From: Cordylochernes scorpioides
Taxonomy: Eukaryota; Arthropoda; Arachnida; Pseudoscorpiones; Chernetidae
Direction of reading: 5' to 3'
DNA: 64,000 bases
Assembly (NCBI GenBank): GCA_030710605.1
Contig: CP092868.1
Coordinates: forward strand, 26,727,050-26,791,049
In this document: piece after piece, positions 4,997 to 63,022 of the stretch
Layout of the letters: every line of letters starts with the position of its first letter
Numbering within the stretch: the first letter of the stretch is position 1
Notes under the pieces: model-generated
Seen by the model: the letters and a program-made list of their open reading frames with translations, nothing else
The model's database searches: none
What the model was told of the DNA's origin: nothing
Made by a program: the position numbers and the translations under genes

Positions 4997-5609
4997 ATAG
5001 ATGGCAATTAAATTTAATTTACTATATATATATTCCCCTACACTTTATATGCCCTTTTACTCTTTTATTTTTCCACCTTTGTAAAATTTGATTAAAAGAA
5101 TCAATAAAATTGTTTGTATTGTCAAATTGTCTACCAGACCTCACCACTGATGAGCCAAGCCCTCCCAGGTAAGGAGAGTAGAGAAAAGTTTGATTTATTT
5201 GTGAAAAGAAACATTCGCATCTTAAATGTTTTCATTTGTTATATATAGATGGCGTGTTATTGATTTGCATATATTCTGAGTATGTAAATAGAAATGTGAA
5301 GAGTGAAATAAAATGGGCGATAACTGGATAATAAATAAAGAAGTTTTGATAAGATAGATAGATGAACGAAGCATGTTGAAGGTCATTACAGAAAAAGACA
5401 AAATTGATCGATTAAGAAATAAATGGAAATGGAGCCTTGAATAAATTTGTGTGGAAAAAGTAATGAATAGAAAGATAACGTTTTTGTATAGAAATGTTCT
5501 GGAGGAGTTTGACAATTTGATGACTACATTCCTTCCCCATGCCACACGTTCAATCTCTCCCCAAGAGAGAATCCTGTAGAGCATGACTGTAGAATATCAC
5601 TGTAAAGGA

Positions 5610-9800: not shown

Positions 9801-12800
9801 TTCCTTGTTTTGTGTTCTTCTTTTGACATGTCCACATAGTCCCTCTTCATTCCTTGTTCTCTGTTCTTCTTTTGACATGTCCACATAGTCCCTCTTCATT
9901 CCTTGTTTTGTTCTTCTTTTGATATGTCCACATAGTTCCTCTATTCCTTGTTTTGTTCTTCTTTTGACATGCCCACATAGTCCCTCTTCATTCCTTGTTT
10001 TGTTCTTCTTTTGACATGCCCACATAGTCCCTCTTCATTCCTTGTTTTGTGTTCTTCTTTTGACATGTCCACATAGTCCCTCTTCATTCCTTGTTTTGTG
10101 TTCTTCTTTTGACATGTCCACATAGTCCCTCTTCATTCCTTGTTCTCTGTTCTTCTTTTGACATGTCTACATAGTCCCTCTTCATTCCTTGTTTTGTTCT
10201 TCTTTTGACATGTCCACATAGTCCCTCTTCATTCCTTGTTCTCTGTTCTTCTTTTGACATGTCCACATAGTCCCTCTTCATTCCTTGTTTTGTTCTTCTT
10301 TTGACATGTCCACATAGTCCCTCTTCATTCCTTGTTCTCTGTTCTTCTTTTGATATGTCCACATAGTTCCTCTATTCCTTGTTTTGTTCTTCTTTTGACA
10401 TGTCCACATAGTCCCTCTTCATTCCTTGTTTTGTGTTCTTCTTTTGACATGCCCACATAGTCCCTCTTCATTCCTTGTTTTGTGTTCTTCTTTTGACATG
10501 TCCACATAGTCCCTCTTCATTCCTTGTTCTCTGTTCTTCTTTTGACATGTCCACATAGTCCCTCTTCATTCCTTGTTTTGTTCTTCTTTTGACATGTCCA
10601 CATAGTCCCTCTTCATTCCTTGTTCTCTGTTCTTCTTTTGACATGTCCACATAGTCCCTCTTCATTCCTTGTTTTGTGTTCTTCTTTGGTCATGTCCACA
10701 TAGTCCCTCTTCATTCCTTGTTCTCTGTTCTTCTTTTGACATGTCCACATAGTCCCTCTTCATTCCTTGTTCTCTGTTCTTCTTTTGACATGTCCACATA
10801 GTCCCTCTTCATTCCTTGTTCTCCGTTCTTCTTTTGACATGTCCACATAGTCCCTCTTCATTCCTTGTTCTCTGTTCTTCTTTTGACATGTCCACATAGT
10901 CCCTCTTCATTCCTTGTTCTCTGTTCTTCTTTTGACATGTCCACATAGTCCCTCTTCATTCCTTGTTTTGTGTTCTTCTTTTGACATGCCACATAGTCCC
11001 TCTTCATTCCTTGTTTTGTTCTTCTTTTGATATGTCCACATAGTCCCTCTTCATTCCTTGTTTTGTGTTCTTCTTTTGACATGCCCACATAGTCCCTCTT
11101 CATTCCTTGTTTTGTTCTTCTTTTGATATGTCCACATAGTTCCTCTATTCCTTGTTTTGTTCTTCTTTTGACATGTCCACATAGTCCCTCTTCATTCCTT
11201 GTTTTGTGTTCTTCTTTTGACATGCCCACATAGTCCCTCTTCATTCCTTGTTTTGTTCTTCTTTTGACATGTCCACATAGTCCCTCTTCATTCCTTGTTT
11301 TGTGTTCTTCTTTTGACATGCCCACATAGTCCCTCTTCATTCCTTGTTTTGTGTTCTTCTTTTGACATGTCCACATAGTCCCTCTTCATTCCTTGTTCTC
11401 TGTTCTTCTTTTGACATGTCCACATAGTCCCTCTTCATTCCTTGTTTTGTTCTTCTTTTGATATGTCCACATAGTTCCTCTATTCCTTGTTCTCTGTTCT
11501 TCTTTTGACATGTCCACATAGTCCCTCTTCATTCCTTGTTTTGTTCTTCTTTTGACATGCCCACATAGTCCCTCTTCATTCCTTGTTCTCTGTTCTTCTT
11601 TTGACATGTCCACATAGTCCCTCTTCATTCCTTGTTCTCTGTTCTTCTTTTGACATGTCCACATAGTCCCTCTTCATTCCTTGTTTTGTTCTTCTTTTGA
11701 TATGTCCACATAGTTCCTCTATTCCTTGTTCTGTTTTGACATGTCCACATAGTTCCTCTATTCCTTGTTCTCTGTTCTTCTTTTGACATGTTCACATAGC
11801 CCCTTCATTCCTTGTTTTGTTCTTCTTTTGACATGCCCACATAGTCCCTTTTCATTCCTTGTTTTGTTCTTCTTTTGACATGCCCACATAGTCCCTCTTC
11901 ATTCCTTGTTTTGTTCTTCTTTTGACATGTCCACATAGTCCCTCTTCATTCCTTGTTTTGTTCTTCTTTTGACATGCCCACATAGTCCCTCTTCATTCCT
12001 TGTTTTGTGTTCTTCTTTTGACATGTCCACATAGTCCCTCTTCATTCCTTGTTTTGTGTTCTTCTTTTGACATGTCCACATAGTCCCTCTTCATTCCTTG
12101 TTTTGTGTTCTTCTTTTGACATGTCCACATAGTCCCTCTTCATTCCTTGTTCTCTGTTCTTCTTTTGACATGTCCACATAGTCCCTCTTCATTCCTTGTT
12201 TTGTTCTTCTTTTGATATGTCCACATAGTTCCTCTATTTCTTGTTCTGTTTTGACATGTCCACATAGTTCCTCTATTCCTTGTTCTCTGTTCTTCTTTTG
12301 ACATGTTCACATAGCCCCTTCTTTACTTGTTCTGTTCTTCTTTTGACATGTCCATATAGTCACTTCATTCCTTGTTTTGTTCTTCTTTTGACATGTCCAC
12401 ATAGTTCCTCTATTCCTTGTTTTGTTCTTCTTTTGACATGTCCACATAGTCCCTCTTCATTCCTTGTTTTGTTCTTCTTTTGACATGTCCACATAGTCCC
12501 TCTTCATTCCTTGTTTTGTTCTTCTTTTGACATGCCCACATAGTCCCTCTTCATTCCTTGTTTTGTTCTTCTTTTGACATGCCCACATAGTCCCTCTTCA
12601 TTCCTTGTTTTGTTCTTCTTTTGACATGCCCACATAGTCCCTTTTCATTCCTTGTTTTGTTCTTCTTTTGACATGTCCACATAGTTCCTCTATTCCTTGT
12701 TCTCTGTTCTTCTTTTGACATGTTCACATAGCCCCTTCATTACTTGTTCTGTTCTTCTTTTGACATGTCCATATAGTCACTTCATTCCTTGTTTTGTTCT

Positions 12801-13072
12801 TCTTTTGACATGTCCACATAGTTCCTCTATTCCTTGTTCTCTGTTCTTCTTTTGATATATCCACATAGTCCCTTCATTCTTTGTTCTGTTCTTCTTTTGA
12901 CATGTCCACATAGTTCCTCTATTCCTTGTTCTGTGTTCTTCTTTTGACATGTCCACATAATCCCCCTTCATTCTTTGTTCTGTTCGTCTTTTGATGACAT
13001 ACCCACATAGTTCCTCTATTCCTTGTTCTATTAATTTGATGAGATCTCCATATAATCTCTCCATTACTTGTT
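6810..13072. repeat. 47/49-bp minisatellite, expanded allele (copy A)
   Basis: Roughly 130 tandem units of the form acatgtccacatagtccctc followed by ttcattccttgttttgttcttcttttg. The unit is 47 bp with tgttttgttc and 49 bp with tgttttgtgttc or tgttctctgttc, and 44-46 bp where ttca is missing (cctctattccttg). The same array in copy B is only about 1.5 kb. Minus-strand frames rich in K, R, E and T are read-through of the repeat; the mixed 47/49 lengths keep breaking them, so I reject coding function. Confidence 0.95.
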
Positions 13073-13689
13073 TAGGAATTTCAATGTTATATATATATTA
13101 CGCACAAGAACAATTTAAGTACTAACAACGCCCAAAAATTCTCGAAATTCACAAAAAATACTCAAAATCTAAAGAAAGCGGAGACTAAGAGAGTGTAATT
13201 TAAATACAAATAATTAGGTTGAATATCTAAATAAGGTATAAGAACAATTTAAATTCCGAGGAAACTGCTTAAGATGCATTACTAATTCCAAAAGAAAAAA
13301 AAATCAAGAACAATTTTAATCTCTAAGGAATATGTCAGAACACAAAAAAAGATAATGACCAACAAATAAAACCCTAATTGGATTTTTTCCCAAAGAAACA
13401 CCTATATGCAACTTTACTTATATGTAAATAATTATATCTCTTGTGGAGAGAGAGTGGAAAAAAAGGGGAAATGGGGGGAGGGGGGAAGAGAACGCTTAAG
13501 AATTAATATTAATTACTCTAATTAGTGTTAGTTTTTCAAATTTTTTTTTATAACTAATTTCAAGATTTATAACATTTTGATAATCTGGTTAGTTACAGTT
13601 CTAAGGTCAATTTTGAACTCTTCCGAAAAAAAAAAAAATTTTTTTATAAAGTGTGTTTCAAAATTCGAAACTATTTTGAAAGCGTAAGA
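13073..13689. other. AT-rich spacer shared by both copies
   Basis: Pairs with 50283-50913. It has a G-rich run near 13470-13486 that is much longer in copy B (50683-50709), and several poly-A/T runs. No gene or element end is apparent. Confidence 0.6.
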
Positions 13690-14002
13690 TTCTTTATGAA
13701 ATTAAACAATTTCTACTGACCTTACTGCAATGGAAAAATTAATGGGAGGGCCTGGCTCATCAGTGGTGAACCCTCCCAGCGGTTTCGCCAGTTTAAACTA
13801 CCATACCGCTGTTATATTGCATTTTTGGAACTTCCTTTTTTAGTGATACTGTGTTGGTAGACTCTTGGAATGGGTATTTTTAGAAGAACTATGGATTAAT
13901 AAATAAATAGAAGAACAGAGTAGATTAAACTGGCGAAACCGCTGGGAGGATTCACCACTGATGAGCCAGGCCCTACCATTAATTTTTCCATTTGCAGGAA
14001 GG
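13690..14002. mobile_element. Foldback element, right arm truncated
   Basis: Inverted arms carry the open-stem-II hammerhead-like motif at 13752-13791 (minus) and 13930-13969 (plus). The copy B counterpart keeps about 110 bp more of the right arm (near 51218-51330), including the agatggcgcg box, so copy A has suffered a deletion near 14000. Confidence 0.75.
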
Positions 14003-14019
14003 ACAGCGCCATCTATATA

Positions 14020-14760
14020 TAAAAAAAGAAAACATTAAAACACGAAAGTTTCTCTTTTTACACATAAAACAAACTTCTACTATCCTTACTGCGATGAAAA
14101 AATATTGCCACATGGAAAATTAGGGAAGGCAAAATTCAGTATGATACAGCAAATTATTTAAGACAAGAACAAACTATGAATGATAAACAAAAGATAAGCA
14201 AAAAAGGGAAGTGTACAGAGTATAGTAAAATATAAAATATAATACTCTGCTAATAAAATAATAAATACTTTGTTACAATATTATGAAGGCTTTGACTCAT
14301 CAGTGGTGAATCCGCTTTCGACAATTTAATCTACAAGATCGTTTTCTTTAGAGCTTTAATACTGTATTGGACGATTCTGATTATATATGAACTAGCCGAA
14401 TGACCCGGGCAACGCCCGTGTTTTACCCGATTGAATGTTTTTATTCAAATACTATTTGTTACAATTATAAATTGGCGCCTTAAATAAATGAATATATTAG
14501 TTAATAACTATAGCCTATGTGCTTTATCTGTCTATGTACTGATGGGGGGGGGGGGGGGGCAAAGGTGGCGTGATCGTAGCCAACCAATAGGAGGGCGCCA
14601 TTCCAAAAAAAAAAAAAAAAAAAGCAAACGGTGACAGAGTTTATTAGGAGATGAAGAATGACGCTCGTAACTGTATATAGAATTGCAGCAAAAGAAGGGT
14701 GGAATCTTAGAAATGGTATTCAAGTAAACTATGGACATAAGCTTATAGGACAGTAGAATT
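14020..14760. mobile_element. Second foldback element, with nested insertions
   Basis: It starts with cgccatctatatata and ttctactatccttactgcg as in the complete copy at 62614-63022, and its far end matches the internal unit with ggtggaatcttagaaatgg. A Helitron-like element interrupts it at 14395-14690, and about 190 bp of other sequence interrupts the left part. Confidence 0.65.
14395..14690 (-). mobile_element. Helitron-like non-autonomous element
   Basis: On the minus strand the element starts near ttctatatacagttacgag and ends cgggcgttgcccgggtcatt followed by cggCTAG. A GC-rich hairpin a few bases before CTAG is the usual Helitron 3' end, and T follows CTAG in every copy here. Other copies: 18770-19168 (+), 51716-52001 (-) and 63255-63648 (+). 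The 55.0-kb repeat shows what looks like the uninterrupted site (ttttatatgctacaatg). The interior has long G and A runs. No RepHel protein is present. Confidence 0.65.
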
Positions 14761-14989
14761 ACCTATAAATATTTACATCTATGCATCGAGTAATAAAAAT
14801 GGGTTGACATAGTCATAGATGGTACTCTGCCTTCTGTAAAGCACATATGCTCCTGGTCAGGATATGCCATTTTTAATAGTCATATATGTGAAAAAATAGT
14901 TACAAATGTGATATTGTACTGGGATAAGGTGCATAATTATGAAAAAGGGGGCATCTCTCATGATTTTTCAGGATGCCTTGAATGACCAG

Positions 14990-15195
14990 TTTTTTGGTCG
15001 TTGAGGTACAGCTTGCACCACGCTGATGAGGACCAACAGCCCGAAACGCGTCCGTGGTTAGCTTTTCTTGATTAATCAAGAATGGGTATTTGGCCAATTC
15101 TGGAATAATAAAAAATCAACGAGAATAGTTGATATTTATTCCGATAGATGGCGCAAGCCATCAGCAACTTTCAGTTGCACGATAAGGAGATGCCC
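14990..15195 (+). mobile_element. Hammerhead-bearing repeat (Penelope/retrozyme-like), single arm
   Basis: Order: ggtcgttgaggtacagcttg, the ribozyme (15018-15057), an ATTAATCAAG palindrome, tatttggccaattctgg, an agatggcg box at 15146-15153, then gataaggagatgcc. In copy B the same place holds two opposed arms (52195-52676); here the left arm is missing. Confidence 0.75.
15018..15057 (+). ncRNA. Minimal type I hammerhead ribozyme, stem II weakened
   Basis: Reads CCACG (stem I), CTGATGA, GGAC-CAACA-GCCC (stem II), GAAA, C-GC-G (2-bp stem III with GC loop, counting A15.1-U16.1), UC cleavage dinucleotide, CGTGG (stem I). All core bases are intact. Stem II has one A-C mismatch relative to GGGC/GCCC in copy B, so activity may be reduced. 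Hammerheads with such a short stem III are known from Penelope-like retroelements and animal retrozymes. Confidence 0.8.
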
Positions 15196-15675
15196 CCTCC
15201 CCCCTTTTTTTATATAGTCATATATATTCCCAAACTACTTCCAACCAACAAATAATCCTCAAAACCACACGCAAATTACAATACCCAGATAGTGCTGTAC
15301 AATAATTCTATGTTTTCCTACACAAGGAACCGACAAATATCCCTTCCCCCCGAGGTAGCTTGCCTGGAGCACAAATTCTTCTAATGCCACCAGTAATTGC
15401 TTCTACTTATTTTCTCATCTCTAACGGATTTCTTCTTTAGCTTCCGTTGACTAGGAGGTATTTCTAAATTAAAATACCATTTCTCTCTCTATCTCTCTGG
15501 ATCCTTTTTACATATATTCCCACTTTATTTAGATTAATTGCATATACAAGTGCTTTCATATGCACACATATACAGTTTTTTGACAATTAAAACAAATTTA
15601 TTGACAACTCAGTCAATATTTACAAAATAAGGAAGAGATCACAATAATAATTAGATAAAATAAAAAGATAGCGAA

Positions 15676-15748
15676 AAGTGTGTTTGAACCAGGGACATCA
15701 GGTTCTAAAGTCTAAAGCTTTCGCAGCTAGGCTATTTTGCCGTATTAT
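15676..15748 (-). repeat. tRNA-like (SINE head) sequence at gap edge
   Basis: On the minus strand tagcctagctgcgaaagc resembles a pol III A box and ctggttcaaacac a B box. The T arm and acceptor do not fold properly, so this is a tRNA-derived SINE head or pseudo-tRNA, not a functional tRNA. The paralogue is at 53147-53216. Confidence 0.5.
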
Positions 15749-18000: not shown

Positions 18001-18339
18001 ATATATAATTTAAACCTATTTCTACATTCCTTTTACTGCAATGATTACATATTGAAAGAGGAGGGGCCTGGCTCATCAGTGGTAAACCTTTATAAGCGGT
18101 TTTCTTTTTCCATTTTAATCTTACAGACAGCTTCAAACTATTATATTAGACTGTGTTTCTTACATACTCTGCCTTTTTTTTGCTATTGAATACAGTAAAT
18201 TGTGATATTTTGAAAGAACTATAGTAGATATGTGTATGAATAATATATAATTAAGGTATATTTGGTATATATTATGGTATATTTTATGCAAAAAGTAATT
18301 TCAAAAGTGAAATTATACTGGGATCGGGAGGATAAACAT

Positions 18340-21611: not shown

Positions 21612-22174
21612 AAGAACATATACAATGAATAAAACTCCGCCTGATGCTAAACCTAGGCTAACTGTATTCTTTTCATTACAGAGCTTCCTTTTTTTTCTGT
21701 TATGAAAATCCGAAACTATTTTAGACGCTGAAATTAAACAATTTCTACTGCCCTTAATGCAATGGAAAAAATAATGGAAGGGCCTGACTCATCAGTGGTG
21801 AACCCTCCCAGCGGTTTCGCCAGTTTAATCTACTATACTGCTGTTATATTGCATTTTTTCGATCTTCTTTTTAAAATGATACTGATGGTAGACTCTTGGA
21901 ATGGTTATAATATATAATATAAATATATATATTTTTTCTGTATAAGCGCGTCATGTTCGGTAGATTTAGCAGGGGGGGGGGGGGGGGGGGGGTTCTAGTA
22001 ATTCACATCTTGACATTCCAAGTAGAGTTGGAGTCTCCCTCAAGAATGAAGCGGAATCCCCCAGGATCCAAAAAACCGGTCTTAGGAATATAAAGCCTCC
22101 AGCGAATTTTCATATTTTAAACATACACTACTCCTTATTGGCTTATATAACGGCGCCTTTCCCAAACATAAATA

Positions 22175-38873: not shown

Positions 38874-38998
38874 CTTCAGGTATTAAAATGACAATTTTCT
38901 TTGTAAGAAATTTAAACTATATTTGAAGCGTAGGATTCTTTTAAAAAATAAATCAATTTTCTACTGCCTTTACTGCAATGATAAAAATAATGGGAGGG

Positions 38999-39039
38999 CC
39001 TGTCTCATCAGTGGTGAACCCTCTCAGCGGTTTCGACAG
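38999..39039 (-). ncRNA. Open-stem-II hammerhead-like motif, CTGTC/GACAG variant
   Basis: Minus strand order: CTGTC, GAAA, 19 nt (ccgctgagagggttcacca), CTGATGA, GACAG. The two flanking 5-mers pair perfectly, as do CTGGC/GCCAG at 13752, 13930 and 50970 and TTGGC/GCCAA at 4645, 46611, 54960 and 62899; 21784 has a G-U pair instead. The total is 40 nt in the copies I counted. In a hammerhead, stem II lies between CTGATGA and GAAA; here the order is circularly permuted with stem II open (type II layout). AACC/GGTT can form a stem III, but only ACCA-type sequence separates it from CTGATGA, so no stem I is visible. Confidence 0.55.
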
Positions 39040-39129
39040 TTTAATCTACAATTTTTTTCAATTTTTCTGTGAAGAAAAAAGAAGCAATACTCACTTAAAA
39101 CAAGAATCAAAAATATAGTCACTATTGCT

Positions 39130-41820: not shown

Positions 41821-42122
41821 AGATTTATTTATGGATTGCTCTATTTTCAAAACAATATAAAAATATGTAAATATATAAAATAATTGAGAGAGAGAGAGAG
41901 AGTTATTTGGTTATAAGATTAACTTGACTAAGCTCCACTGTTAACTAACCCTTTTCAACCCTCAAGTATTCACAAACCATGACGAAGTTAGGTTAAGTTA
42001 AGTTAAATAAACAAGGAAGCTAGTATAAGAAATTTAAACTATTTCTGACGCGTATGTTTATTTTTAAAATTAAAACAATTTCCTACTGTTCATGCTGTAA
42101 TAGTAAATTAATGGGAGGGCTT

Positions 42123-42162
42123 GGCTCATCAGTGGTAAACCGTCCCAGCGGTTTCGCCAGTT
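42123..42162 (-). ncRNA. Open-stem-II hammerhead-like motif
   Basis: CTGGC before GAAA and GCCAA after CTGATGA: four pairs plus one C-A mismatch. The surrounding repeat (ctgttcatgctgtaatagt, ttaatgggagggc) matches the foldback family. Confidence 0.5.
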
Positions 42163-42443
42163 TAATCTACCATACAGCTGTAATATTACATTGAGAATGG
42201 GAACTAATTCCGAAACCTTCCCGAAGCTTCTTAATTATACAGTCAAAAGTGGATAATTCGAAGCTCAAGGGACAAAAATCGAATTATTCAATAATTCGAA
42301 TTAAAAGCGAAAAATTCTATTTATAGAACGACATTTGAAAATTATCCCGCATGTGTTTCTTTTGCACGAAAAATGAAATTAAATTTAAGGGGAGAAATAA
42401 CAATTATTTCTAACCTTAGGGATGAAGTATGAAATAATGAATT

Positions 42444-43683: not shown

Positions 43684-44035
43684 GGTCTTCTTCTTTCTTA
43701 TCTCCACTCAATCATATTACGGTATCAAGCTTGTAAAGTTGACAAGGTGATTAGGTGAAGTAGTCTGCCTTTGTCATTAAGACTGGGAGCACTACTCAGT
43801 GGCAGGCCGACTTAGCTCCAAAAGAAATAGCCGCCTCTGACATGAAGAACAGGCGCCATGTACAGCCGCTCCTAACATGGAGTACAAACGCTGCTCATCC
43901 TGTATCCCTGGATTAGGAGCCCTTACAGAGTACTATCAGCCGGGCCAGCTGAACCAAGGTTTGGTAGCAAGCTTATTACTGCTCCCTCTCCTCCTTTTTC
44001 ATCCAGGCTTGGGACCGGCAAAGGCGGAGTTACTT
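43684..44035 (+). repeat. Dispersed ~350-bp repeat, copy 2 of 3
   Basis: See 16299-16662. It ends at ggcaaaggcggagtta, exactly like copy 1, and abuts the inverted-end element at 44036. Confidence 0.75.
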
Positions 44036-44214
44036 AACTAGTGATGATAAGGAATGAGCCACAACACCAGTTTAGGAAAATTCAGACAAAAGCCAACAAC
44101 CTGTATACCATGGTATCTGGCTATGACCCTCATCAGTACAGGGACGGCTTCGATTTCATAACATTCTGGGAGAGGAGTGAACTGGTGTTGTGACTTTATC
44201 ATTACTAGTAAAGT
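44036..44214. mobile_element. Inverted-end element carrying a second hammerhead type
   Basis: Imperfect inverted ends: actagtgatgataaggaatg...caacaccagtt at the left and aactggtgttgtgactttat cattactagt at the right. The minus strand inside has the hammerhead-like motif 44100-44142. A related left end occurs at 56212-56240. Confidence 0.7.
44100..44142 (-). ncRNA. Second hammerhead family, core mutated
   Basis: Minus strand: CCTGTA (stem I), CTGATGA, GGGT-CATA-GCC, then GATA where GAAA is needed, C-CATG-G, UA, TACAGG. Stem I is a perfect 6 bp. The GAAA to GATA change should abolish activity. The sister copy at 58690-58732 keeps GAAA. Confidence 0.6.
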
Positions 44215-45481: not shown

Positions 45482-46066
45482 TTCTGATCTCAGACTTTAT
45501 CGAATCCAGAATCATGATATCTGATCTGAGAAACTTATTTACAGATGATCAACAAATTTATGACCCATCCATTCCAGGAATTATAGACGCCTTTCTCAAA
45601 TCAAGAATGAATGTTTTGAAAAACGAAGCAAATAATACTTTCTTGAGCTTTTTTTCCCAAGAAATCCCTAAATACTTTCGTCCAAATTTTTATAATACTC
45701 AATTTGTTACAAACCACGGAAATTTCAAAAGTTTTTAAAATAGAATAAAGACAGCGGAGGATTCAAGTTGCTTTTGTGGTATTGAGAAACAAACCTCAAG
45801 ACATCTACTGATCGATTGCCCAGCATTTCAAGATTATAGAATGAAGAATGAACTAGTTGTTTGTGAACTTAACGATTTGATTTCCGATAAAAAAATCATA
45901 TTTAAAGTTCAATTCATTTTGTAAATACATTCTAAACTTTCTACAAAATCTGGATCTCTAATGTTTTCATGCGTTGAATAATGTAAATAACTTATGTAAA
46001 TAAACTTTTCTCCTTGTTTGGCGCAAGTATCCCTTGCGGGATATAGCGCTTTGGAAATAAAATAAT
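45482..46066 (+). pseudogene. 5'-truncated non-LTR retrotransposon, insertion in copy B
   Basis: Copy A shows the apparent empty site: attttgtataaatattattt at about 4104. The insertion encodes part of an ORF2 tail from about 45510 (ISDLRNLFTDDQQIYDPS) to GNFKSF, a stop at about 45736, then the CFCG...RHLLIDCPAFQDYR knuckle and a 3' UTR with gggatatagcgctttgg, ending aataaaataattg. It is the same element as 21138-21503 but longer at the 5' side. The family is likely I/R1/Jockey-like from the CCHC tail; no RT domain is visible here. Confidence 0.8.
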
Positions 46067-46778
46067 TGATATAAATATTATTTAGACATTTTATATTATT
46101 GACAACTTAACGCGTCCATCTATGCAAGTTCTTCCTAAGTCTTGAGGTGAGAGGAGATCACGAAAACCTCTCCCCCTGATTAACTGGAAAAGGAATTTTC
46201 CATGTTGGAGAAATCTCTCCTCGACTGTGCATAATTATACATAATCTCTTTGTTTATAGTTTCCTTTCTTAAACTGGCGAAACCGTTGGGAAGGTTCGCT
46301 AATGATGAACCAGGCCCTTCCATTTATTTATCATTTTAGTAAGAGCAGTAGAAAAATGTTTTATTTACAAAAAGAACGCGTCAAATTAGTTTAAATATCT
46401 TAAAATAGATGGCGTTCTAATCCATTCATGTGACTATACATCTTTTAAAACTTAAGTGTTGCGTATGGTCTAACATTGAAGAATGTCAATAAAACTGTTT
46501 TAAATATATTCCATGTATAACAAATGAAAACATTAAGACGCAAGTGTTCCTTTCACAAATAAATCAAACTTCTACTGTCCTTACTGCGATGGAAAAAAAT
46601 ATTGGGAGTCTTGGCTCATCAGTGGTAAACCCTTCAAGCGGTTTCGCCAATTTAATCTACCAGACCTCACTGTCTGGAGGAGGACTCTCTCAAGGTGGGG
46701 AAGCCTTCCTTGCTGAAGATATTTGTACACAACTATATATGAAAAACAATAGAAAAAAATAAAAGTGGGTCAGGTGTT

Positions 46779-46885
46779 GATATTAAAAATAAAGAAGGCA
46801 TTTCCTGACCACAAGCACATGTGCTTTTTAGATGGCAGAGCGCCATCTAGTGGAGCAAAAATAAACTAAACGTTTATTTATAACT
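46779..46885 (+). mobile_element. Ribozyme-repeat fragment without ribozyme
   Basis: Contains gaaggcatttcctgaccac, then agatggcagagcgccatct, an imperfect palindrome on the agatggcg box, and agtggagcaaaaataaac. The hammerhead section is absent. Confidence 0.6.
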
Positions 46886-47499
46886 ATATATATATTCCCC
46901 TACACTTTATATACCCTTTTACTCTTTTATTTTTCCACCTTTGTAAAATTTGATTAAAATAATCAATAAAATTGTTTGAATTGTCAAATTGTCTACCAGA
47001 CCTCACCACTGATGAGCCAAGCCCTCCCAATATATCGCATTAAGGAGAATAGAGAAAAGTTTGATTTATTTGTGAAAAGAAACATTCGCGTCTTAAATGT
47101 TTTCATTTGTTATATATAGATGGCGCGTTATTGATTTGCATATATTCTAAGTATGTAAATAGAAATGTAAAGAGTGAAATAAGATGGGCGATAACTGGAT
47201 TAGAAATGAAGAAGTTTTGACAAGATAGATGAACGAAGCATGTTGAAGGTCATTATAGAAAAAGACAAAAATGATCGATTAAGAAATAAATTAAGAAGAA
47301 ATGGAGCCTTGAATAAATTTGTGTGAAAAAGGTAATGAATAGAAAGATAACGTTTTTGTATAGAAATGTTCTGGAGGAGTTTGACAATTTGATGACTACA
47401 TTCCTTCCCCATGCCACACGTTCAGTCTCTTCCCGAGAGAGAATCCTTCAGAGACAAATTATAGAATCTCATTGTAAAGGACAACATCTACATTCATGT

Positions 47500-48215
47500 A
47501 TCAAGTATATCTGTATTCAGACAATAACTCTGAAAGATATTACAGTGACCTTTATGGAAGACACACTATATACACTCATGGACAAAACTTAAGGAAGTTG
47601 TACCTTTTACCATGTATATCTGTATTCAGACAATAACTCTGAAAGATATTACATTGGCCTTTATTGAAGATACACTATATACACTCATGGACAAAATTTA
47701 AAGAAGTTGTACCTTTTACCATGTATATCTGGGTTCAGACAATAACTCTGAAATATATTACAGTGACCTTTATTGAAGACAAACTATATACACTCATGGA
47801 CAAGACTTAAGGAAGTTTTACCTTTCAGCATGTATATCGGGATTCAGACAATAACTCTGAAAGATATTACAGTGACCTTTATTGAAGACACACTATATAC
47901 ACTCATGGACAAGACTTAAGGAAGTTGTACCTTTCAGCATGTATATCGGGATTCAGACAAACAATAACTCTGAAAGATATTACAGTGACCTTTATTGAAG
48001 ACACACTATATACACTCATGGACAAGACTTAAGGAAGTTGTACCTTTCAGCATGTATATCGGGATTCAGACAATAACTCTGAAAGATATTTGATACACCG
48101 TGACCTTTATTGAAGACATGAGATAAATAAGTGTAAACAAAATTGCCTCTATCTCTTTCAAAAACATACGACCGTCGAAATCAAATACTTTCCACTTCCT
48201 CAAGTTTGTCCATTA
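47500..48215 (-). mobile_element. Tc1-like MITE with six 109-bp units
   Basis: Paralogue of 5610-6245 with one more unit; the gggattcagacaataac-type block recurs at about 47514, 47622, 47731, 47838, 47947 and 48061. The fifth unit has a 4-bp duplication (acaaacaataac). Confidence 0.8.
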
Positions 48216-48735
48216 GTATATTTGAAAAGACGAAGTAAACTTTAGAGAAAAGTTTCCTCCTACCTGAGAATAGCTAAGTGTTAACAATGGTAAATTAGAT
48301 TATAGAAACTGTCCATTGTTGGAAGGTATCCTTTACCTAGACTACCTGCTCATGGAGTAGTTGTACTGAAATTTAAGATCTAAAAATGATCGGTAGTGTG
48401 ACATGGGAACTCAGAATTTCTCTTTCAAACCAACCATAATCTATTTTGAAATTACTATGAAACAAATCCTATTACTATGGAACAAATCCTATTTTATTAA
48501 ACAAAACGTACAGCACTTCCACTAAAGTTCAGAAATGTGTTTCATTCTTCAGGTAATCCAAAGAGAGTTTGGACGGGGTTTTTGATAATGACGTCCTCTG
48601 GGGAATAAACGAGGGAGAGAGTCTGGAAGGCGGGAGCAGAGTAAATGTTTGTAAATGATCCTAAAATATCCCGGATGTCGTGGCGGGGCGCTCTTCTTTC
48701 GTTTGGAGTTGGCTTCTGCTCTCTGGTCCTCTCAA

Positions 48736-50282
48736 CTTGTCCACATAGTTACCCTTCATTTCTTGTTCTGTTCTTCTTTTGACGACATGTCCACATAGTC
48801 CCTCTTCATTCCTTGTTTTGTTCTTCTTTTGACATGTCCACATAGTTACCCTTCATTCCTTGTTTTCTGTTCTTCTTTTGACATGTCCACATAGTCAATT
48901 CATTCCTTGTTGTGTTCTTCTTTTGACATGTCCACATAGTTACCCTTCATTCCTTGTTTTGTTCTTCTTTTGATATGTCCACATAGTCAATTCATTCCTT
49001 GTTCTGTTCTTCTTTTGATATGTCCACATAGTTCCTCTATTCCTTGTTCTGTTTTGACATGTCCACATAGTTCCTCTTTTCCTTGTTCTGTGTTCTTCTT
49101 TTGACATGTCCACATAGTCCCTTCATTCCTTGTTCTGTTCTTCTTTTGACATGTCCACATAGTTCCTCTATTCCTTGTTCTGTTTTGACATGTCCACATA
49201 GTTCCTCTTTTCCTTGTTCTGTGTTCTTCTTTTGACATGTCCACATAGTCCCTTCATTCCTTGTTCTGTTCTTCTTTTGACATGTCCACATAGTTCTTCT
49301 ATTCCTTGTTCTCTGTTCTTCTTCTGACATGTCCACATAGTTCCTCTATTCCTTGTTCTCTGTTCTTCTTTTGACATGTCCACATAGTTCCTCTATTCCT
49401 TGTTCTCTGTTCTTCTTCTGACATGTCCACATAGTTCCTCTATTCCTTGTTCTCTGTTCTTCTTCTGACATGTCCACATAGTTCCTCTATTCCTTGTTCT
49501 CTGTTCTTCTTTTGACATGTCCACATAGTTCCTCTATTCCTTGTTCTCTGTTCTTCTTCTGACATGTCCACATAGTTCCTCTATTCCTTGTTCTCTGTTC
49601 TTCTTTTGACATGTCCACATAGTCACATCATTTCCCTGTTCTCTGTTCTTCTTTTGACATGTCCACATAGTCACTTCATTCCTTGTTTTGTTCTTCTTTT
49701 GATGTGTCCACATAGTTCCTCTATTCCTTGTTCTGTTTTTGACATGTCCACAAAGTCACTTCATTCCTTGTTCTGTTCTTCTTTTGACGACATGTCCACA
49801 TAGTCAATTCATTCCTTGTTCTGTTCTTCTTTTGATATGTCCACATAGTTCCTCTATTCCTTGTTCTCTGTTCTTCTTTTGACATGTCCACATAGTCACT
49901 TCATTCCTTGTTCTGTTCTTCTTTTGATATGTCCACATAGTTCCTCTATTCCTTGTTCTCTGTTCTTCTTTTGACATGTCCACATAGTCACTTCATTCCT
50001 TGTTCTGTTCTTCTTTTGATATGTCCACATAGTTCCTCTATTCCTTGTTCTCTGTTCTTCTTTTGACATGTCCACATAGTCACTTCATTCCTTGTTCTGT
50101 TCTTCTTTTGATATGTCCACATAGTTCCTCTATTCCTTGTTCTCTGTTCTTCTTTTGACATGTCTCCATAGTCCCTCCATTCCTTTTTCTGTTCTTCTTT
50201 TGACGACATACCCACATAGTTCCTCTATTCCTTGTTCTATTAATTTGATGAGATCTCCATATAATCTCTCCATTACTTGTTT
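48736..50282. repeat. 47/49-bp minisatellite, short allele (copy B)
   Basis: About 32 units of the 6810-13072 array, more diverged from each other (cacttcattcc, caattcattcc, cctctattcc, cctcttttcc variants). Variants such as gttacccttcattcc appear only here. Both ends align with copy A. Minus-strand frames (MWTCQKKN...) are read-through. Confidence 0.95.
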
Positions 50283-50913
50283 AGGAATTTCAATGTTATA
50301 CGAGTAATATAACGCGTACAAGAACAATTTAACTACTAACAACGCCCAAAACATCTCGAAATTCACAAAAATACTCAAAATCTAAAGAAAGCGAAGACTA
50401 AGAAAGAGTAATTTAAATACAAATAATTAGGTTGAATATCTAAATAAGTAGAAGAAGAACAATTTAAATTCCAAGGAAACTGCTTAAGATGCATTACTAA
50501 TTCCAAAAAAAATCAAGAACAATAATAATCCCTAAGGAATATGTCAGAACACAAAAAAAGATAATGACCAACAAATAAAACCCTAATTGGATTTTTTCCC
50601 AAAGAAACACCTATATGCAACCTAGCTTATATGTAAATAATTATAGCTCTTGTGGAGAGAGTGGAAAAAAAAGGGGAAATGGGGGGAGGGGGGGGGGGGG
50701 GGGGGGGGGTAAGAGAACGCTTTAAGAATTAATTTTAATTACTCTAATTAGTGTTGGTTTTTCAATTTTTTTTTTTATAACAAATATCAAGATTTAGAAC
50801 ATTTTGATAATCTGGTTAGTTACAGTTCTAAGGTCAATTTTGAACTCCAGAAAAAAAAAAAAGATTCTTATAAAGTGTGTTTCAAAATTCGAAACTATTT
50901 TAAAAGCGTAAGA

Positions 50914-51330
50914 TTCTTTTTGAAATTAAACAATTTCTACTGACCTTACTGCAATGGAAAAATTAATGGGAGGGCCTGGCTCATCAGTGGTGAACCCTCC
51001 CAGCGGTTTCGCCAGTTTAATCTACCATACCGCTGTTATATTGCATTTTTGGAACTTCCTTTTATAGTGATACTGTTGGAAGACTCTTGGAATGGGTATT
51101 TTTAGAAGAACTATGGATTAATAAATAAATAGAAGAACAGTAGATTAAACAGGCGAAACCGCTGGGAGGGTTCACCACTGATGAGCCAGGCCCTACCATT
51201 AATTTTTCCATTTGCAGTAAGGGCAGTAGAAATTGTTTAATTTTAAAAAGAATCTTACGCCTTTAAAATAGTTTCGAATTTTGATAACAGATGGCGCGAT
51301 AGTGCATTATAAAGTGTGTTCAATTATCAT
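50914..51330. mobile_element. Foldback element, complete in copy B
   Basis: Arms of about 150-190 bp start aaattcgaaactattttaaa at the left and end with its complement at the right, followed by acagatggcgcgatag. The open-stem-II hammerhead-like motif sits in each arm, at 50970-51009 (-) and 51147-51186 (+). Copy A has lost the outer right arm. Confidence 0.8.
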
Positions 51331-51344
51331 AGGACTGCGCCATC

Positions 51345-52075
51345 TATATATATAAAAAAAGAAAACATTAAAACACGAAAGTTTCTTTTTATACATAAAA
51401 CAAACTTCTACTATCCTTACTGCGATGAAAAAATATTGCCACATGGAAAATTAGGGAAGACAAACTTCAGGATGACACAGCAATTTATTTAAGAACAAAC
51501 TATGAATGATAAACAAAAGATAAGCAAAAAAGGGAAGTGTATAGAGTAGAAAAATATAAAAAAATAATACTCTGCTAATAAAATAATAAATACTTTGTTA
51601 CAATATTATGAAGGCTTTGACTCATCAGTGGTGAAAAGGCTTTCGACAATTTAATCTACAAGATCGTTTTCTTTAGAGCTTTAATACTGTATTGGATCAT
51701 TCTGATTATATATGAACTAGCCGAATGACCCGGGCAACGCCCGTATTTTACCCGATTGAATGTTTTTATTCAAATACTATTTGTTACAATTATAAATTGG
51801 CGCCTTAAATAAATGCATATATTAGTTAATAACTATAGCCTATGTGCTTTATCTGTATATGTACTGATGGGGGGGGGGGGCAAAGGTGGCGTGATCGTAG
51901 CCAACCAATAGGAGGGCGCCATTCCAAAAAAAAAAAAAAAAGCAAAGGTGACAGAGTTTATTAGGAGATGAAGAATTACGCTCGTAACTGTATATAGAAT
52001 TGCAGCAAAAGAAGGGTGGAATCTTAGAAATGGTATTCAAGTAAACTATAGACATAATATTTTAGGACAGTAGAA
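51345..52075. mobile_element. Second foldback element with Helitron-like insertion
   Basis: Paralogue of 14020-14760. The Helitron-like insertion spans about 51716-52001 (minus), with hairpin cgggcgttgcccgggtcat read as cgggcaacgcccgt and CTAG at 51717. G and A runs inside differ in length from copy A. Confidence 0.65.
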
Positions 52076-52338
52076 TTACTTATAAATATTTACATCGAGT
52101 AATGCATCGAGTAATAAAAATGATTTGACAAAGTCATAACTGTGAAAAAATAGTACATATGTGATATTGTACTGGGATAAGGTGCATAATAATGAAAAAA
52201 GGCATCTCCTTATCGTGCAACTGAAAGTTGCTGATGGCTTGCGCCATCTATCGGAATAAATATCAAATATTCTCGTTGATTTTTTAATTATTCCAGAATT
52301 GGCCAAATACCCATTCTTGATTAATCAAGAAAAGCTAA

Positions 52339-52378
52339 CCACGGACGCGTTTCGGGCTGTTGGCCCTCATCAGCGTGG
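52339..52378 (-). ncRNA. Minimal type I hammerhead ribozyme, intact core
   Basis: Minus strand: CCACG, CTGATGA, GGGC-CAACA-GCCC, GAAA, C-GC-G, UC, CGTGG. Stems I and II are fully paired, and GUC is the preferred cleavage triplet. It is directed away from its plus-strand twin at 52492-52531. Confidence 0.85.
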
Positions 52379-52491
52379 TGCAAGCTGTACCTCAACGACC
52401 AAAAACGAGTCTGGCCTTAACTACCCGTTTCATGATTTTTCAGGATGCCTTGAATGACCAGTTTTTTTTGGTCGTTGAGGTACAGCTTGCA

Positions 52492-52531
52492 CCACGCTGA
52501 TGAGGGCCAACAGCCCGAAACGCGTCCGTGG
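52492..52531 (+). ncRNA. Minimal type I hammerhead ribozyme, intact core
   Basis: Identical 40-nt design to 52339-52378 on the other strand. The copy A orthologue (15018-15057) differs by one stem II base. Predicted cleavage is 3' of C52526 (GUC). Confidence 0.85.
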
Positions 52532-53146
52532 TTAGCTTTTCTTGATTAATCAAGAATGGGTATTTGGCCAATTCTGGAATAATTAAAAAATCAACGAGAA
52601 TTGTTGATATTTATTCCGATAGATGGCGCAAGCCATCAGCAACTTTCAGTTGCACGATAAGGAGATGCCTTTTTTCATAGTCATATATATTCCCAAACTA
52701 CTTCCAATTAACAAATAATCCTCAAAACCACACACACACATTACAATACCCAGATAGTATTGTACAAGAATTCTATGTTTTCCTACACAAGGAACCGACA
52801 AATATCCCTTCCCCCCCGAGGTAGCTTGCCTGGAGCACAAATTCTTCTAATGCCACCAGTAATTGCTTCTACTTATTTTCTCATCTCTAACGGATTTCTT
52901 CTTCAGCTTTCGTTGACTAGGAGGTATTTCTAAATTAAAATACCATTTCTCTCTCTTTCTATCTGGATCCTTTTTACATATATTCCCACTTTATTTAGAT
53001 TAATTGCATATACAGATGCTTTCGTATGCACATATACAGTTTTTTGACCATTAAAACAAATTTATTGTGACAACTCAGTCAATATTTACAAAATGAGGAA
53101 GAGATCACAAAAATAATTAGAGAAAATAAAAAGATAACAAAAAGTG

Positions 53147-53216
53147 TGTTTGAACCAGGGACATCAGGTTCTAAAGTCTAAAGCTTTCGCAGCTAGGCTA
53201 TTTTGCCTTATTATAT
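53147..53216 (-). repeat. tRNA-like SINE head (copy B)
   Basis: Paralogue of 15676-15748: ctggttcaaacac B-box-like, tagcctagctgcg A-box-like. It marks the right end of detectable homology between the copies. Confidence 0.5.
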
Positions 53217-54004: not shown

Positions 54005-54362
54005 GTCAGTCTTCTTCTTTCTTTCTTATTTCCCCACTCAATCATATTACGGTACTTGTAAAGTTGACAACCATCATGATTGGGTGAAGTAGAATGCGTC
54101 TGCCTTTGTCATTAAGACTGGGAGCACTACTCAGTGGCAGGCCGACATAGCTCCAAAAGAAATGGCCGCCTATGACATGAGGAACAGACACTATGTGCAG
54201 CCGCTCCTAACATGGAGTATAAACACGGCTCATCCTATATCCCTGGATTAGGAGCCCTTACAGGGTACTATCAGCCAGGCCAGCTGAATCCAGGTTTTTT
54301 AGTGAACATGTTACTGTTCCCCTTCCTCCTTTTTCATCCGGGCTTGGGACCGGCAAAGGCTT
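54005..54362 (+). repeat. Dispersed ~350-bp repeat, copy 3 of 3
   Basis: See 16299-16662. The match stops at ggcaaaggc, a few bases earlier than in the other two copies. Confidence 0.75.
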
Positions 54363-54364
54363 GT

Positions 54365-54850
54365 GGGATAGTAATGGACAGTAGTGTCAGTTTTTTTATT
54401 TATAAAAGAAAAAAAAAGTTCTATGAATATCATAATTTATTGTATTAATATACAGATTTATGAGCTTAGAAGAGATTAAGGCTAATGATGACGAGTTTGT
54501 TTAAGATTTAAGGAAAGCGCCTTTATTTGGAATCCTCTAATTAATGCGAAATCGAAAAAATCTCTGCTCGATTATCATTAAAAAACATGAAAACAAAATT
54601 ATTTAGTTGTTAACTATTTGTTTATAGAGAAAAGTTTTAACACAGGAACTAATTGTTGATGGGTTTAACAGAATAATTAATGATGGTTCATTAGAGGGTA
54701 GTTAAATACACAGAACTCTTGTTTTAATTATTTATTGATAATTGAAGGTACCTTCGTTTGTTCACGTTTGTTTAACATTGTGTAAACACCTTCTGTGAAT
54801 ATTTATTGTGTTTTTATCCTCTGTTTTTTTTTTTAAGGAAATCACTGGAA
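54365..54850. other. AT-rich sequence, nothing recognised
   Basis: No element or gene seen. The 78-codon frame at 54212-54448 starts inside the repeat and runs into poly-A. Confidence 0.5.
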
Positions 54851-54859
54851 TTTGCTTAT

Positions 54860-55060
54860 AAGACTTTTATAACAAATGAAAACATCAAGACGCGAATGTT
54901 TCTTCTCATGAATAAATCAAATTTCTACTGTCCTTGCTGCGATGAAAAAATATTGGGAGGGCTTGGCTCATCAGTGGTGAACATTCCCAACGGTTTTGCC
55001 AATTCAATCTACCAGACTGCTTCTTTAGATCTCTAATACTGTATTGGATCATTCTGATTT
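54860..55060 (+). mobile_element. Foldback-family left arm feeding the 81-bp array
   Basis: Contains gtttcttctcatgaataaat, ttctactgtccttgctgcg, and the open-stem-II motif at 54960-54999 (minus; TTGGC/GCCAA, GCAAAA replacing CGAAA). It then runs through ctctaatactgtattgg into the first 81-bp unit. Confidence 0.7.
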
Positions 55061-56022
55061 TATATGCTACAATGAAGGGTGGAATCTTAGAAATGGTATT
55101 TAAGAAAACTATGGACATAAGCTTTTAGGACAGTAGAATTATATATGCTACACTGAAGTGTGGAATCTCAGAAATGGTATTTAAGAAAACTATGCACATA
55201 AGCTTTTAGGACAGTAGAATTATATATGCTACACTGAAGGGTGGAATCTTAGAAATGGTATTTAAGCAAACTATGGACATAAGCTTTTAGGACAGTAGAA
55301 TTATATATGCTACACTGAAGGGGGGAATATTAGAAATGGTATTTAAGAAAACTATGCATATAAGCTTTTAGGACAGTAGAATTATATATGCTACACTGAA
55401 GAGTGGAATCTTAGAAATGGTATTCAAGTAAACTATGGACATAAGCTTTTAGGACAGTAGAATTATATATGATACATTGAAGGGTGGAATCTTAGAAATA
55501 TTATTTAAGAAAACTATGGACATAAGCTTTTAGGACAGTAGAATTATATATGCTACACTGAAGGGTGGAATCTTAGAAATGGTATTTAAGCAAACTATGG
55601 ATATAAGCTTTTAGGACAGTAGAATTATATATGCTACACTGAAGGGTAGAATCTTAGAAATGGTATTTAAGAAAACTATGCATATAAGATTTTAGGATAG
55701 TAGAATTATATATGCTACACTGAAGGGTGGAATATCAGAAATGGTTTTTAAGAAAACTATGGACATAAGCTTTTAGGACAGTAGAATTATATATGCTACA
55801 CTGAAGGTTGGAATCTTAGAAATGGTATTTAAGCAAACTATGGACATAAGCTTTTAGGACAGTAGAATTATATATGCTACACTGAAAGATGGAATCTTAG
55901 AAATGGTATTTAAGTAAACTATGGACATAAGCTTTTAGGACAGTAGAATTATATATGCTACATTGAAGGGTGGAATCTTAGAAATGGTATTTAAGCAAAC
56001 TATGAACATAAGCTTTTAGGAC
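55061..56022. repeat. 81-bp satellite, about 12 units
   Basis: Unit: gctacactgaagggtggaat, cttagaaatggtatttaaga, aaactatggacataagcttt, taggacagtagaattatata t. The same sequence occurs once inside the foldback elements at 14690-14760, 52003-52075 and 62765-62850, so the array arose by amplifying that element's interior. Confidence 0.9.
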
Positions 56023-56029
56023 AGGGAAG

Positions 56030-56988: not shown

Positions 56989-58311
56989 CAAGGTATGTCC
57001 CATAAGTTCCCGGACTGGGTCCATAAAAAAAAAGGTAAGATTTAAAAAAAAAAAAAAATATTAAAACTTTTCAAAGTAATCCCCCCTTGCTTCAACGCAC
57101 CAGCGCCATCGTTTCTCCCAATTGTCGAAACAGTTTTTATAGGCCTCTTTTGGAATGCTCTTCAATGCCAGCAGCGATTTTTCTATTATGTCTTCCCTGG
57201 TGTCAAAATGTCTTCCTTTTAGAACTGCTTTGAGTTTGGGGAACAGGAAAAAGTCATTTGGTGCGATGTCTGGGGAATAGGGTTGTTGAGGTAGGATTTC
57301 TGTCCCGTTTTTCGCCAAAAAACTATCACCAAGTGCGCTGTGTGAGGGCGGGCATTGTCATGGTGTAGGATCCAGTCACCATTAGTCCATTTTTCTGGCC
57401 TTTTTTTTCGAATCGCTTCCTTTAGACGGCGAAGAATGCTCAAATACATTTCCTTAATAACTGTTTGGCCTGCAGGAAGATACTCGTGATGAACAATGCC
57501 CTTGTTATTCAAAAAAGCGACCAGCAACTTCTTGTTTCTGTATTTCAATATCCTGGATTTTTTGGTTCTAGGCTCACCCTGACCTCTCCACTCGGCAGAT
57601 TGACGCTTGGTTTCAGGGTCATAGCCATAGACCCATGTCTCGTCGCCTGTGATTATCTTGTCTTTCCATTCCGGATCCGTTCTTGTCATTTCCAACATGT
57701 CCTCACAGGTTGCAATCCGGCACAGTTTTTGCTCATTAGTGAGGAATCTTGAGATGAATTTTACAGGAGTCTTTTTGAGCTTCAAATCTTCGGTTACGAT
57801 CCTTCGAATCGTTGTTTTAGAGATGCCTGTGTCTTGCTCTAGCTCCAGCAAAGTGGTTCGAGGATTTTATTTTATCAAATCGGTGATTTTTTGCAGATTT
57901 TCATCAGTCCTTTGAAATTTTGGGCGTCCTTAACGAGGATCATCTTCAATGGAAATCCTGCCAGCTTTAAATCTAGAATGTCATTCAAAAACAGTTGTTC
58001 TCTTTAGGGCGTCATTGGGGAATGCTTTATTAAGCATTTCAAAAGTTTCGGTTGCTGATATTTGAAGTTTCACACAAAATTCTATGCAAATCCTCTGCTT
58101 CAATTTTTGTTCCATCGTAAAATCGCCGCAGCGCTAGGTGTAACCTTTAAATAAATTAGAATAACTTTGGCGCGCGCGCACATATCGTCTCGATATTGGT
58201 ACCACCGTGTTGCCAGATATTTTTTCTATAATAAACTGTCAAATTTATTTACATTTTTCATTTATTTATTTTTTTATGGACCCAGTCCGGGAACTTATGG
58301 GACATACCTTG
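56989..58311 (-). mobile_element. mariner (DD34D) element, 1323 bp
   Basis: Near-perfect inverted ends of about 37 bp: caaggtatgtcccataagtt at the left and its complement ending cccataccttg-type (gggacataccttg) at the right, flanked by TA on both sides (56987-56988 and 58312-58313). Length, TA target and the internal transposase frame all fit a mariner-family DNA transposon. The near-identical ends suggest fairly recent insertion relative to other repeats here, although the transposase is broken. Confidence 0.95.
57061..58115 (-). pseudogene. mariner transposase pseudogene
   Basis: About 351 codons on the minus strand, the normal length for a mariner transposase, a cut-and-paste enzyme with an N-terminal paired helix-turn-helix domain and a DDD catalytic domain. 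From the ATG at 58115 three in-frame stops fall at 57983-57981, 57932-57930 and 57869-57867, and a frameshift lies near 57320-57340. Visible motifs: helix-turn-helix region TGISKTTIRRIV, first Asp in TGDETWVYGYDP (about codon 158), second Asp in HHDNARPH (about codon 253), third Asp in the shifted frame at APNDFFLFPKLK, 34 residues after the second. All three catalytic residues remain, but the protein cannot be made intact. Confidence 0.93.
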
Positions 58312-62613: not shown

Positions 62614-63022
62614 AATAACGCGCCATCTATACATATAAAATAAAAGGATTTAAAAGCACGAATGTTTCTTTTATACATAATATAAACTTCTACTGTCCTT
62701 ACTGCGATGAAAAAATATATTGGAAGGGCTTGGTTCATCATCGATGCAAATATTTGAATATAATTCTACTGTCCTATAAGCTTATGTCCATAGTTTTCTT
62801 GAAAACCATTTTTGAGATTCCACCCTTCAGTGCTGCGTATATAAGCAGAATCGTCCAATACAGTATTAGAGCTCTGAGAAGCGGTCTGGTAGATTAAATT
62901 GGCGAAACCGCTGGGAGGGTTCACCACTGATGAGCCAATCCCTCCCAATATATTTTTTCATCGCAGTAAGGACAGTAGAAGTTTGTATTATGTATAAAAG
63001 AAACATTCGTGTTTTTAAATTC
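62614..63022. mobile_element. Full-length foldback element with internal 81-bp unit
   Basis: Arms: cacgaatgtttcttttatac and ttctactgtccttactgcga at the left, complements at the right (to gaaacattcgtgttt). The interior has one copy of the unit amplified at 55061-56022. The open-stem-II motif is perfect in the right arm (62899-62938, TTGGC/GCCAA) and largely deleted in the left arm (ttggttcatcatcgatg). Confidence 0.75.

Follow-up and report, generated by a model that had tools for sequence, protein, structure and literature searches.

What is the short motif that recurs along this part of the Cordylochernes scorpioides genome, and could its RNA be a ribozyme? We examined a 64,000-nt stretch of contig CP092868.1 (positions 26,727,050 to 26,791,049; hereafter the window, with positions counted from its first letter), in which an earlier note had described dispersed copies of GAAA and CTGATGA, 19 nt apart and bracketed by 5-mers that pair. 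Our analysis indicates that the motif is, with good probability, a hammerhead of the non-circularly permuted SGC type, in which the cleavage-site strand (S) is followed by the GAAA strand (G) and then by the CUGAUGA strand (C). It would be carried by a small non-autonomous retrozyme-like element (~367 nt, 35% G+C) with tens of thousands of copies in this arthropod genome, and self-cleavage is predicted from the sequence. The SGC architecture has been known since 2023 (PMC10085705; this and the other papers cited are represented here by excerpts). What is new is its occurrence in an animal genome, the very high copy number, the retrozyme-like carrier, and a second SGC-like motif on an element that encodes GIY-YIG and reverse transcriptase (RT) domains.

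The repeat noticed earlier is real. In the window, the pattern GAAA-N17-21-CTGATGA was matched 14 times, compared with a mean of 0.47 and a maximum of 3 in 100 dinucleotide shuffles. Eleven of these matches are family copies at the 19-nt spacing, and 18073 (-) also belongs to the family but is more widely spaced; 58720 (-) was identified by the block scan described below as a canonical-order (type I) hammerhead (scan position 58726 (-)), and 44130 (-) appeared by eye to be a degenerate relative of it. Across the 2.62-Gb genome, one 30-mer taken from the motif had 41,061 exact occurrences (20,641 + 20,420), with 0 occurrences of the reversed control, and at least one family match at E ≤ 0.01 was found in 13 of 20 loci chosen regardless of the motif (20 Mb on contigs 1-20). 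The genome also has the expansion of RR cuticle domains that is typical of arthropods: of 333 candidates, 150 were scored, and every listed one exceeded the cut-off, many of them clustered, compared with none in 14 control genomes. The copies listed by the earlier note at 46278 (+) and 54960 (-) do exist but carry core substitutions, and its weak copies at 14286 and 51612 are present as shortened relatives. Not all copies in the window are independent, because the segments at ~4.1-15.7 kb and ~46.1-53.2 kb duplicate one larger segment. This composite pair (4099-15748 and 46066-53214) contains 109-, 20- and 49-bp arrays that differ in length, with several motif copies inside. The exact motif was not found in viral_contigs or genome_contigs, which are collections without animal genomes, and a literature search with four motif stretches returned one unrelated paper only. 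Our Rfam scans did not detect the motif, so such elements may be overlooked elsewhere.

A third hammerhead strand, AGCGGU-C/A^UGGUGGA (^, predicted cut), was found ~24 nt upstream of GAAA and is part of the motif. AGCGGU is followed by C in subfamilies B and C and by A in subfamily A, and then by UGGUGGA, UGGUAGA, or UAGAGA. Stem III is formed by AGCGGU/ACCGCU, the first A of ACCGCU being the last A of GAAA, and stem I by UGGUGGA/UUCACCA, where UUCACCA precedes CUGAUGA and the fifth pair is A.C in subfamily A. The helix with jointly changing pairs that the earlier note had placed between CTGATGA and GAAA is stem II, and its 5-mer pairs were recovered as described: CTGGC/GCCAG, TTGGC/GCCAA, CTGTC/GACAG at 38999, and the G-U form CTGGC/GTCAG at 21784. 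A fourth helix (helix IV), GGGAGGG/CCCUCCC, joins the outer sides of stems I and II. All core letters are present (CUGANGA, GAAA, and, at the cut, U-H), and the first block holds the cleavage triplet, GUC or GUA. The hammerhead core letters and the pseudoknot proposed earlier thus stand, although that proposal had only two of the three strands. The order of site strand, GAAA strand, and CUGAUGA strand is not produced by circular permutation, which gives types I-III.

This architecture is not new in itself, since the strand order is the SGC order of the HRIMA-1 motif and its SGC variants (Eckert et al. 2023, PMC10085705), a non-circular hammerhead that cleaves in vitro. As described in the excerpts of that report, the source of those ribozymes was metatranscriptomes, and no genome of a known organism was found to contain them. 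They share with the window motif the S-G-C order, the core letters, stems I-III, a fourth helix, which sits where that report requires it, and a triplet in the first block. The window motif differs in being DNA-encoded in arthropod retroelements at very high copy number, and in subfamilies A and B its stems I and II are linked by 5 nt, compared with typically 3 nt in the excerpts. No later SGC hammerheads in genomes or retroelements were found among the matches listed, a search whose coverage ended short of subscription papers and preprints.

We scanned the window and 20 loci on both strands for all six block orders, requiring the core letters plus three stems, each with 4 bp or more, of which 3 or more had to be Watson-Crick. 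The scan returned 10 SGC matches, 3 CGS (type I) matches, and 0 in the other orders. None was found in the first 10 Markov resamplings, and 60 further ones (264 kb) gave 1 SGC, 1 CGS, and 1 GSC match in total. As the 10 SGC matches belong to one family, the scan shows that the family meets the design and does not count ten independent events.

Pairing was then assessed in an alignment, A1, of 30 copies chosen from 89 distinct ones. A1 leaves out L029-L068 (L numbers designate loci outside the window), a set picked because a stem position was changed, together with copies that have larger indels (e.g., L017) and other truncated or fold-back copies; it is not a random sample, because rows L001, L002, L004, and L005 were picked via the exact 30-mer. 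In A1, 88.6% of 747 cells were paired, compared with 31-54% when partners were slid by 1-3 columns; the stems were 85.0-94.7% paired and helix IV 89.5%. Two-sided changes were seen in 6 of 25 pairs (pairs 2 and 5 of stem I, 2 and 5 of stem II, and 1 and 2 of helix IV) and in 26 cells, compared with shuffled means of 4.4 and 10.7. Among 500 shuffles, 0 reached the 26 cells, 0 reached the covariation score, and 262 reached the 14 further pair types. Outside A1, L060 has AGUGGU/ACCACU, with stem III pair 4 changed on both sides. The possibility raised by the earlier note, that two or three ancestral subfamilies explain the variants, holds in part: the two-sided changes mostly separate A, B, and C, and changes within a subfamily are mostly uncompensated.

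In each of subfamilies A, B, and C, the near-consensus copies have a complete core and a GUC or GUA triplet; many other family copies are decayed. In an ungapped fit to 34 copies (window plus L001-L028), the core was intact in 21, and 19 combined it with at least 5/6 pairs in stem III, 4/7 in stem I, and 4/5 in stem II. Three subfamily C copies failed this fit for the sole reason that their linker is one nucleotide shorter. The 21 intact cores are no test of conservation, as the copies came from a fuzzy search on two strands.

The carrier was seen most clearly as an array at L018 (2781-3676), which comprises 2.44 units with a period of 367 nt and 99.6-100% identity. This array has a 27-nt inverted piece at its 5′ end, is flanked by a 14-bp direct repeat, ATAGAAAGAAATTA (read by eye), an apparent target-site duplication, and is one multi-unit insertion. 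The 367-nt unit, with its 35% G+C, showed no reading frame. Among the first 100 exact copies listed (C1, first 4.83 Mb), neighbors within 1.5 kb were divergent (head to head) in 14 cases and convergent (tail to tail) in 1, with 3 ++ pairs (371, 372, and 1098 nt) and 3 -- pairs; 371 and 372 nt are the tandem spacings of exact copies on C1. The element resembles the animal non-LTR (long terminal repeat) retrozymes, as excerpted from PMC7229834, in its small low-G+C units, occurring singly to in tandem with a hammerhead inside, in its target-site duplication of >4 bp, and in showing no reading frame. Those retrozymes carry type I hammerheads, whereas the ~367-nt element carries type SGC and commonly forms head-to-head pairs. 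With regard to an origin from a tRNA-derived short interspersed element, ARAGORN (bacterial settings) found no tRNA.

A second carrier was found at L075, which is part of an array, with a period of ~4.28 kb, of an element with an 824-aa frame. Searched in parts, this frame matched GIY-YIG near its N terminus (PF01541, 8.9e-07) and RVT_1 (PF00078, 6.5e-10), with RYVDD; searched whole, it matched 0 Pfam families. Its domain content assigns it to the Penelope-like elements, with permuted domains, and we presume it to be a 'Naiad'. Between the frames lies, in the order S-G-C and within an outer helix, GACAU-A^AUAAA...GGGGUU-GAAA-UGUC-GCUGAAA-UUUUAU-CUGAUGA-UCCCC-G-UUUCAGC. SGC-like motifs of this kind, with letters unrelated to those of the window motif, occur at L075:3159-3240 (+), L072:123-252 (+), and L073:3047-3176 (-). 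The L073 form has helix IV GCUGGAC/GUCCAGC and CUGAAGA, and two of its helix IV pairs are changed on both sides relative to L075. Among the best 40 of 1138 candidates for the L075 form and the best 40 of 1344 for the L073 form, 40/40 scored identical in each case. This motif failed the strict scan and passes only a relaxed one, because the basal pair of stem II is U.U and, in the L075 form, there is one additional U. Pseudoknot-free folding was unremarkable (z -1.4) and did not return the SGC structure. According to the excerpts of PMC7229834, an axolotl hammerhead also has a U-U mismatch at the base of stem II, and the Penelope-like hammerheads described there are minimal type I variants, in contrast to the SGC-like motif of L075. 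Penelope-like elements with pseudo-LTR hammerheads (PMC11167929, in excerpt) likewise form tandem copies with the ribozyme in the repeated flank, but their GIY-YIG domain is C-terminal and that of L075 is N-terminal. We found no sequence link between the GIY-YIG/RT element and the window element.

Within the window, a complete SGC hammerhead of subfamily B lies at 62880-62946 (+), by its letters and by the strict three-block scan. Its stem III 3′ strand AGCGGU (62880-62885) is followed by H17, C 62886, after which the cut is predicted; the 5′ and 3′ strands are at 62887-62893 and 62920-62926 for stem I, 62934-62938 and 62899-62903 for stem II, and 62913-62919 and 62940-62946 for helix IV, with GAAA at 62904-62907, the stem III 5′ strand at 62907-62912, and CUGAUGA at 62927-62933. 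Complete subfamily A hammerheads were found at 50968-51034 (-), by strict scan and letters, with H17 at A 51028 and the predicted cut between 51028 and 51027, and at 13744-13810 (-), likewise by strict scan and letters, with H17 at A 13804; the latter is a paralogue of the former through the segmental duplication. A TATA-like box, TATATAAG, at 62838-62845 (+), ~48 nt upstream of the predicted cut, recurs at the same place in other copies, and TATAAAAG at 51059-51066 (-) stands ~38 nt upstream of the predicted cut of a subfamily A copy; both are putative promoter elements. Core-intact subfamily A copies lie at 21776-21842 (-), with 5/6 stem III pairs (AGCAGU), and at 42113-42179 (-), with 5/6 stem III (AGCUGU) and 6/7 helix IV pairs. 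The subfamily B-like copy at 46603-46669 (-) and its duplicate at 4637-4703 (-), both also with an intact core, each have 4/6 stem III pairs and, as the earlier note had seen for 46611 and 4645, a broken GGGAGGG/CCCTCCC pairing, of which 4/7 pairs are left.

The copy at 38992-39051 (-), on which the earlier note had centered, retains helix IV, a CUGUC/GACAG pairing as stem II, and the GAAA and CUGAUGA strands but lacks the AGCGGU strand (1/6 stem III pairs). Its family likeness starts within ~1 nt of the predicted cut, and it is predicted to be inactive. The same prediction applies to the subfamily B copy at 54920-55014 (-), where GAAA has become AAAA; adjoining it at 55057-56024 (-) are 12 tandem copies of the 81-bp stretch that precedes the TATA-like box. 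Copies without the cleavage-site strand are also found at 4300-4385 (+); at 46269-46354 (+), a duplicate of the preceding one with a changed core; at 13920-14006 (+), facing away from the 13744 copy, its likeness starting ~3 nt past the predicted cut; and at 51140-51235 (+), facing away from the 50968 copy in the palindrome 50878-51289, its likeness starting ~2 nt past the predicted cut. A diverged family copy with wider spacing lies at 18018-18104 (-).

Several observations weigh against a functional SGC ribozyme in the window family. Stem III lacks any two-sided change in the 30 copies of A1, and the covariation statistic is not strong, because 6 two-sided pairs are attained in 89/500 shuffles. 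Where copies had been picked for a change in a stem, most showed no compensation: among 20 selected for a change at 10.2, a Watson-Crick pair was restored at 11.2 in 0 and a G-U pair in 3, and among 20 selected for a change at 15.3, a Watson-Crick partner was found in 1 (L032), a G-U partner in 3, and none in 11, the other 5 having no recognizable site strand. Stem III abuts helix IV with 0 nt between them, a geometry that PMC10085705, in the excerpt, calls not obvious and finds in few RNAs. In lineage D (L002 954 (+), L045, L086-L092, and others), two strands, GAAA and CUGAUGA, are present, but no cleavage-site strand is recognizable, so not every amplified lineage keeps the ribozyme. In place of that strand stands GGTTGTGCAAATC-TAGATC, which was seen in 7 of 20 loci of one set, plus L002 954 (+) and L045; these 7 loci, all in the terminal 0.9 Mb of one contig, may have arisen by local duplication. 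We note that the upstream sequence of lineage D (L002 954 (+), L045, L086-L092) differs, as GGTTGTGCAAATCTAGATC. Insert ends also show no pile-up at the predicted cut. By the change-point method, the breaks of 105 copies span -29 to +14, with 14 at +3, several of which (e.g., L014, L031, and L064) are artifacts, because the consensuses differ by one nucleotide and these copies have the upstream strand; breaks near the cut that hold up by eye are those of 39036 (-), L037, 51153 (+), 13933 (+), and L040. The lack of an end hot spot speaks neither for nor against use of cleaved RNA. Finally, a GIY-YIG piece just 3′ of a motif copy at L025 was not taken to link the ~367-nt element to an enzyme, because its flank is inverted relative to the intact unit.

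These observations bear on how the motif should be read. The fold might be a relict or dispensable, having been active in an ancestor and surviving today only within a promoter and 5′ region whose multiplication has other causes. Lineage D and the many decayed copies without a cleavage-site strand fit this view, as do insert ends that are not at the cut and the Anolis Penelope-like element, for which the excerpts of PMC11167929 report that insertion in vitro mainly uses uncut RNA and that no reads end at the cut. Yet the core is complete, with GUC or GUA, in the near-consensus A, B, and C copies, and a second SGC-like motif, in which changes are compensated, has been retained on the Penelope-like element; we therefore consider a relict fold rather unlikely. 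Far less credible is that the resemblance arose by chance, with the letters conserved for a promoter or for protein binding. Common ancestry of all window copies would have multiplied a single accidental match, but the Markov shuffles gave 1 SGC match in 60 (264 kb), four helices of the motif are complementary, and the same plan recurs in a second family with unrelated letters.

The two remaining alternatives keep a hammerhead and change its form. In the earlier note, the motif was read as a type II derivative, in which stem II is open, AACC/GGTT serves as stem III, and there is no stem I. The upstream strand, which supplies stems III and I and the cleavage triplet, argues against this. The AACC/GGTT helix is indeed 95.8% paired in the 30 copies, but with zero two-sided changes, and it leaves the cleavage site without stem I. 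Type II hammerheads (the subject of PMC3088659) have the core letters in common with the window motif; their order is circular with an open stem II, and they need a stem I hairpin between the site and CUGAUGA. Here that hairpin is absent, as only CACCA stands between GGUU and CUGAUGA, and these five nucleotides are unable to form stem I. Moreover, the longer stem III that AGCGGU forms requires ACC, and GUC/GUA and a stem I strand lie upstream, which makes a type II derivative highly improbable. A canonical hammerhead might instead assemble across neighboring tandem units, taking CUGAUGA, GAAA, and the site from three units, with the compact S-G-C order being accidental. Tandem arrays exist, and all strands recur in them in every cyclic order. 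Such an assembly would nevertheless require linkers of ~300 nt, yet the strands are complementary within 67 nt; single copies prevail in the sampled loci, and helix IV makes sense within one unit only. We give this arrangement very little credence.

If the motif is an SGC hammerhead, its working can be outlined as follows. Transcription would start 3′ of the TATA-like box that lies 40-50 nt before the cut, and the site, GAAA, and CUGAUGA strands of the RNA would fold into the hammerhead core and stems I-III, which helix IV would lock. By analogy with published SGC ribozymes, the RNA would cut after GUC or GUA, and tandem units would give unit-length RNAs, possibly closing to circles. A reverse transcriptase, most likely that of a Penelope-like element, would then copy unit, multi-unit, or uncut RNA into new sites. 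The SGC order had previously come from environmental RNA, without a host or role in the excerpts of PMC10085705; with tens of thousands of copies in an animal genome, it now has a carrier, a set of subfamilies, and a way of spreading. The origin of a non-circular ribozyme permutation, and the strand-order needs of retrozyme and Penelope-like hammerheads, thus become testable. We put at even chances the broader view that SGC hammerheads have a working role in animal retroelements, with two or more unrelated carriers in a single arthropod genome, that metatranscriptomic SGC RNAs could descend from or have seeded such elements, and that the strand order may have arisen or been kept through tandem and head-to-head copying.

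Other ribozyme-like and coding features were also observed. By the block scan, type I hammerheads occur in other elements at window 58726 (-), L017 4068 (+), and L028 751 (-). A twister was considered for the motif on a likeness of GCCAAGCCC/GGGAGGG and rejected, as twister models gave no match there at E values up to 10. Away from the motif, type-P1 twister matches that scored under the gathering threshold were found at 43982-44036 (-) (38.4 bits, E 2.6e-05) and 54320-54378 (-) (33.3 bits, E 7.6e-04), in both cases on the margin of a single dispersed repeat. Hammerhead_HH9 matches at 52324-52389 (-) and 52481-52546 (+) (26.5 bits, E 0.0077) face each other in a palindromic repeat, 52192-52678. 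The window also contains a 215-aa stop-to-stop frame at 57222-57866 (-), which we take to resemble a mariner-type transposase.
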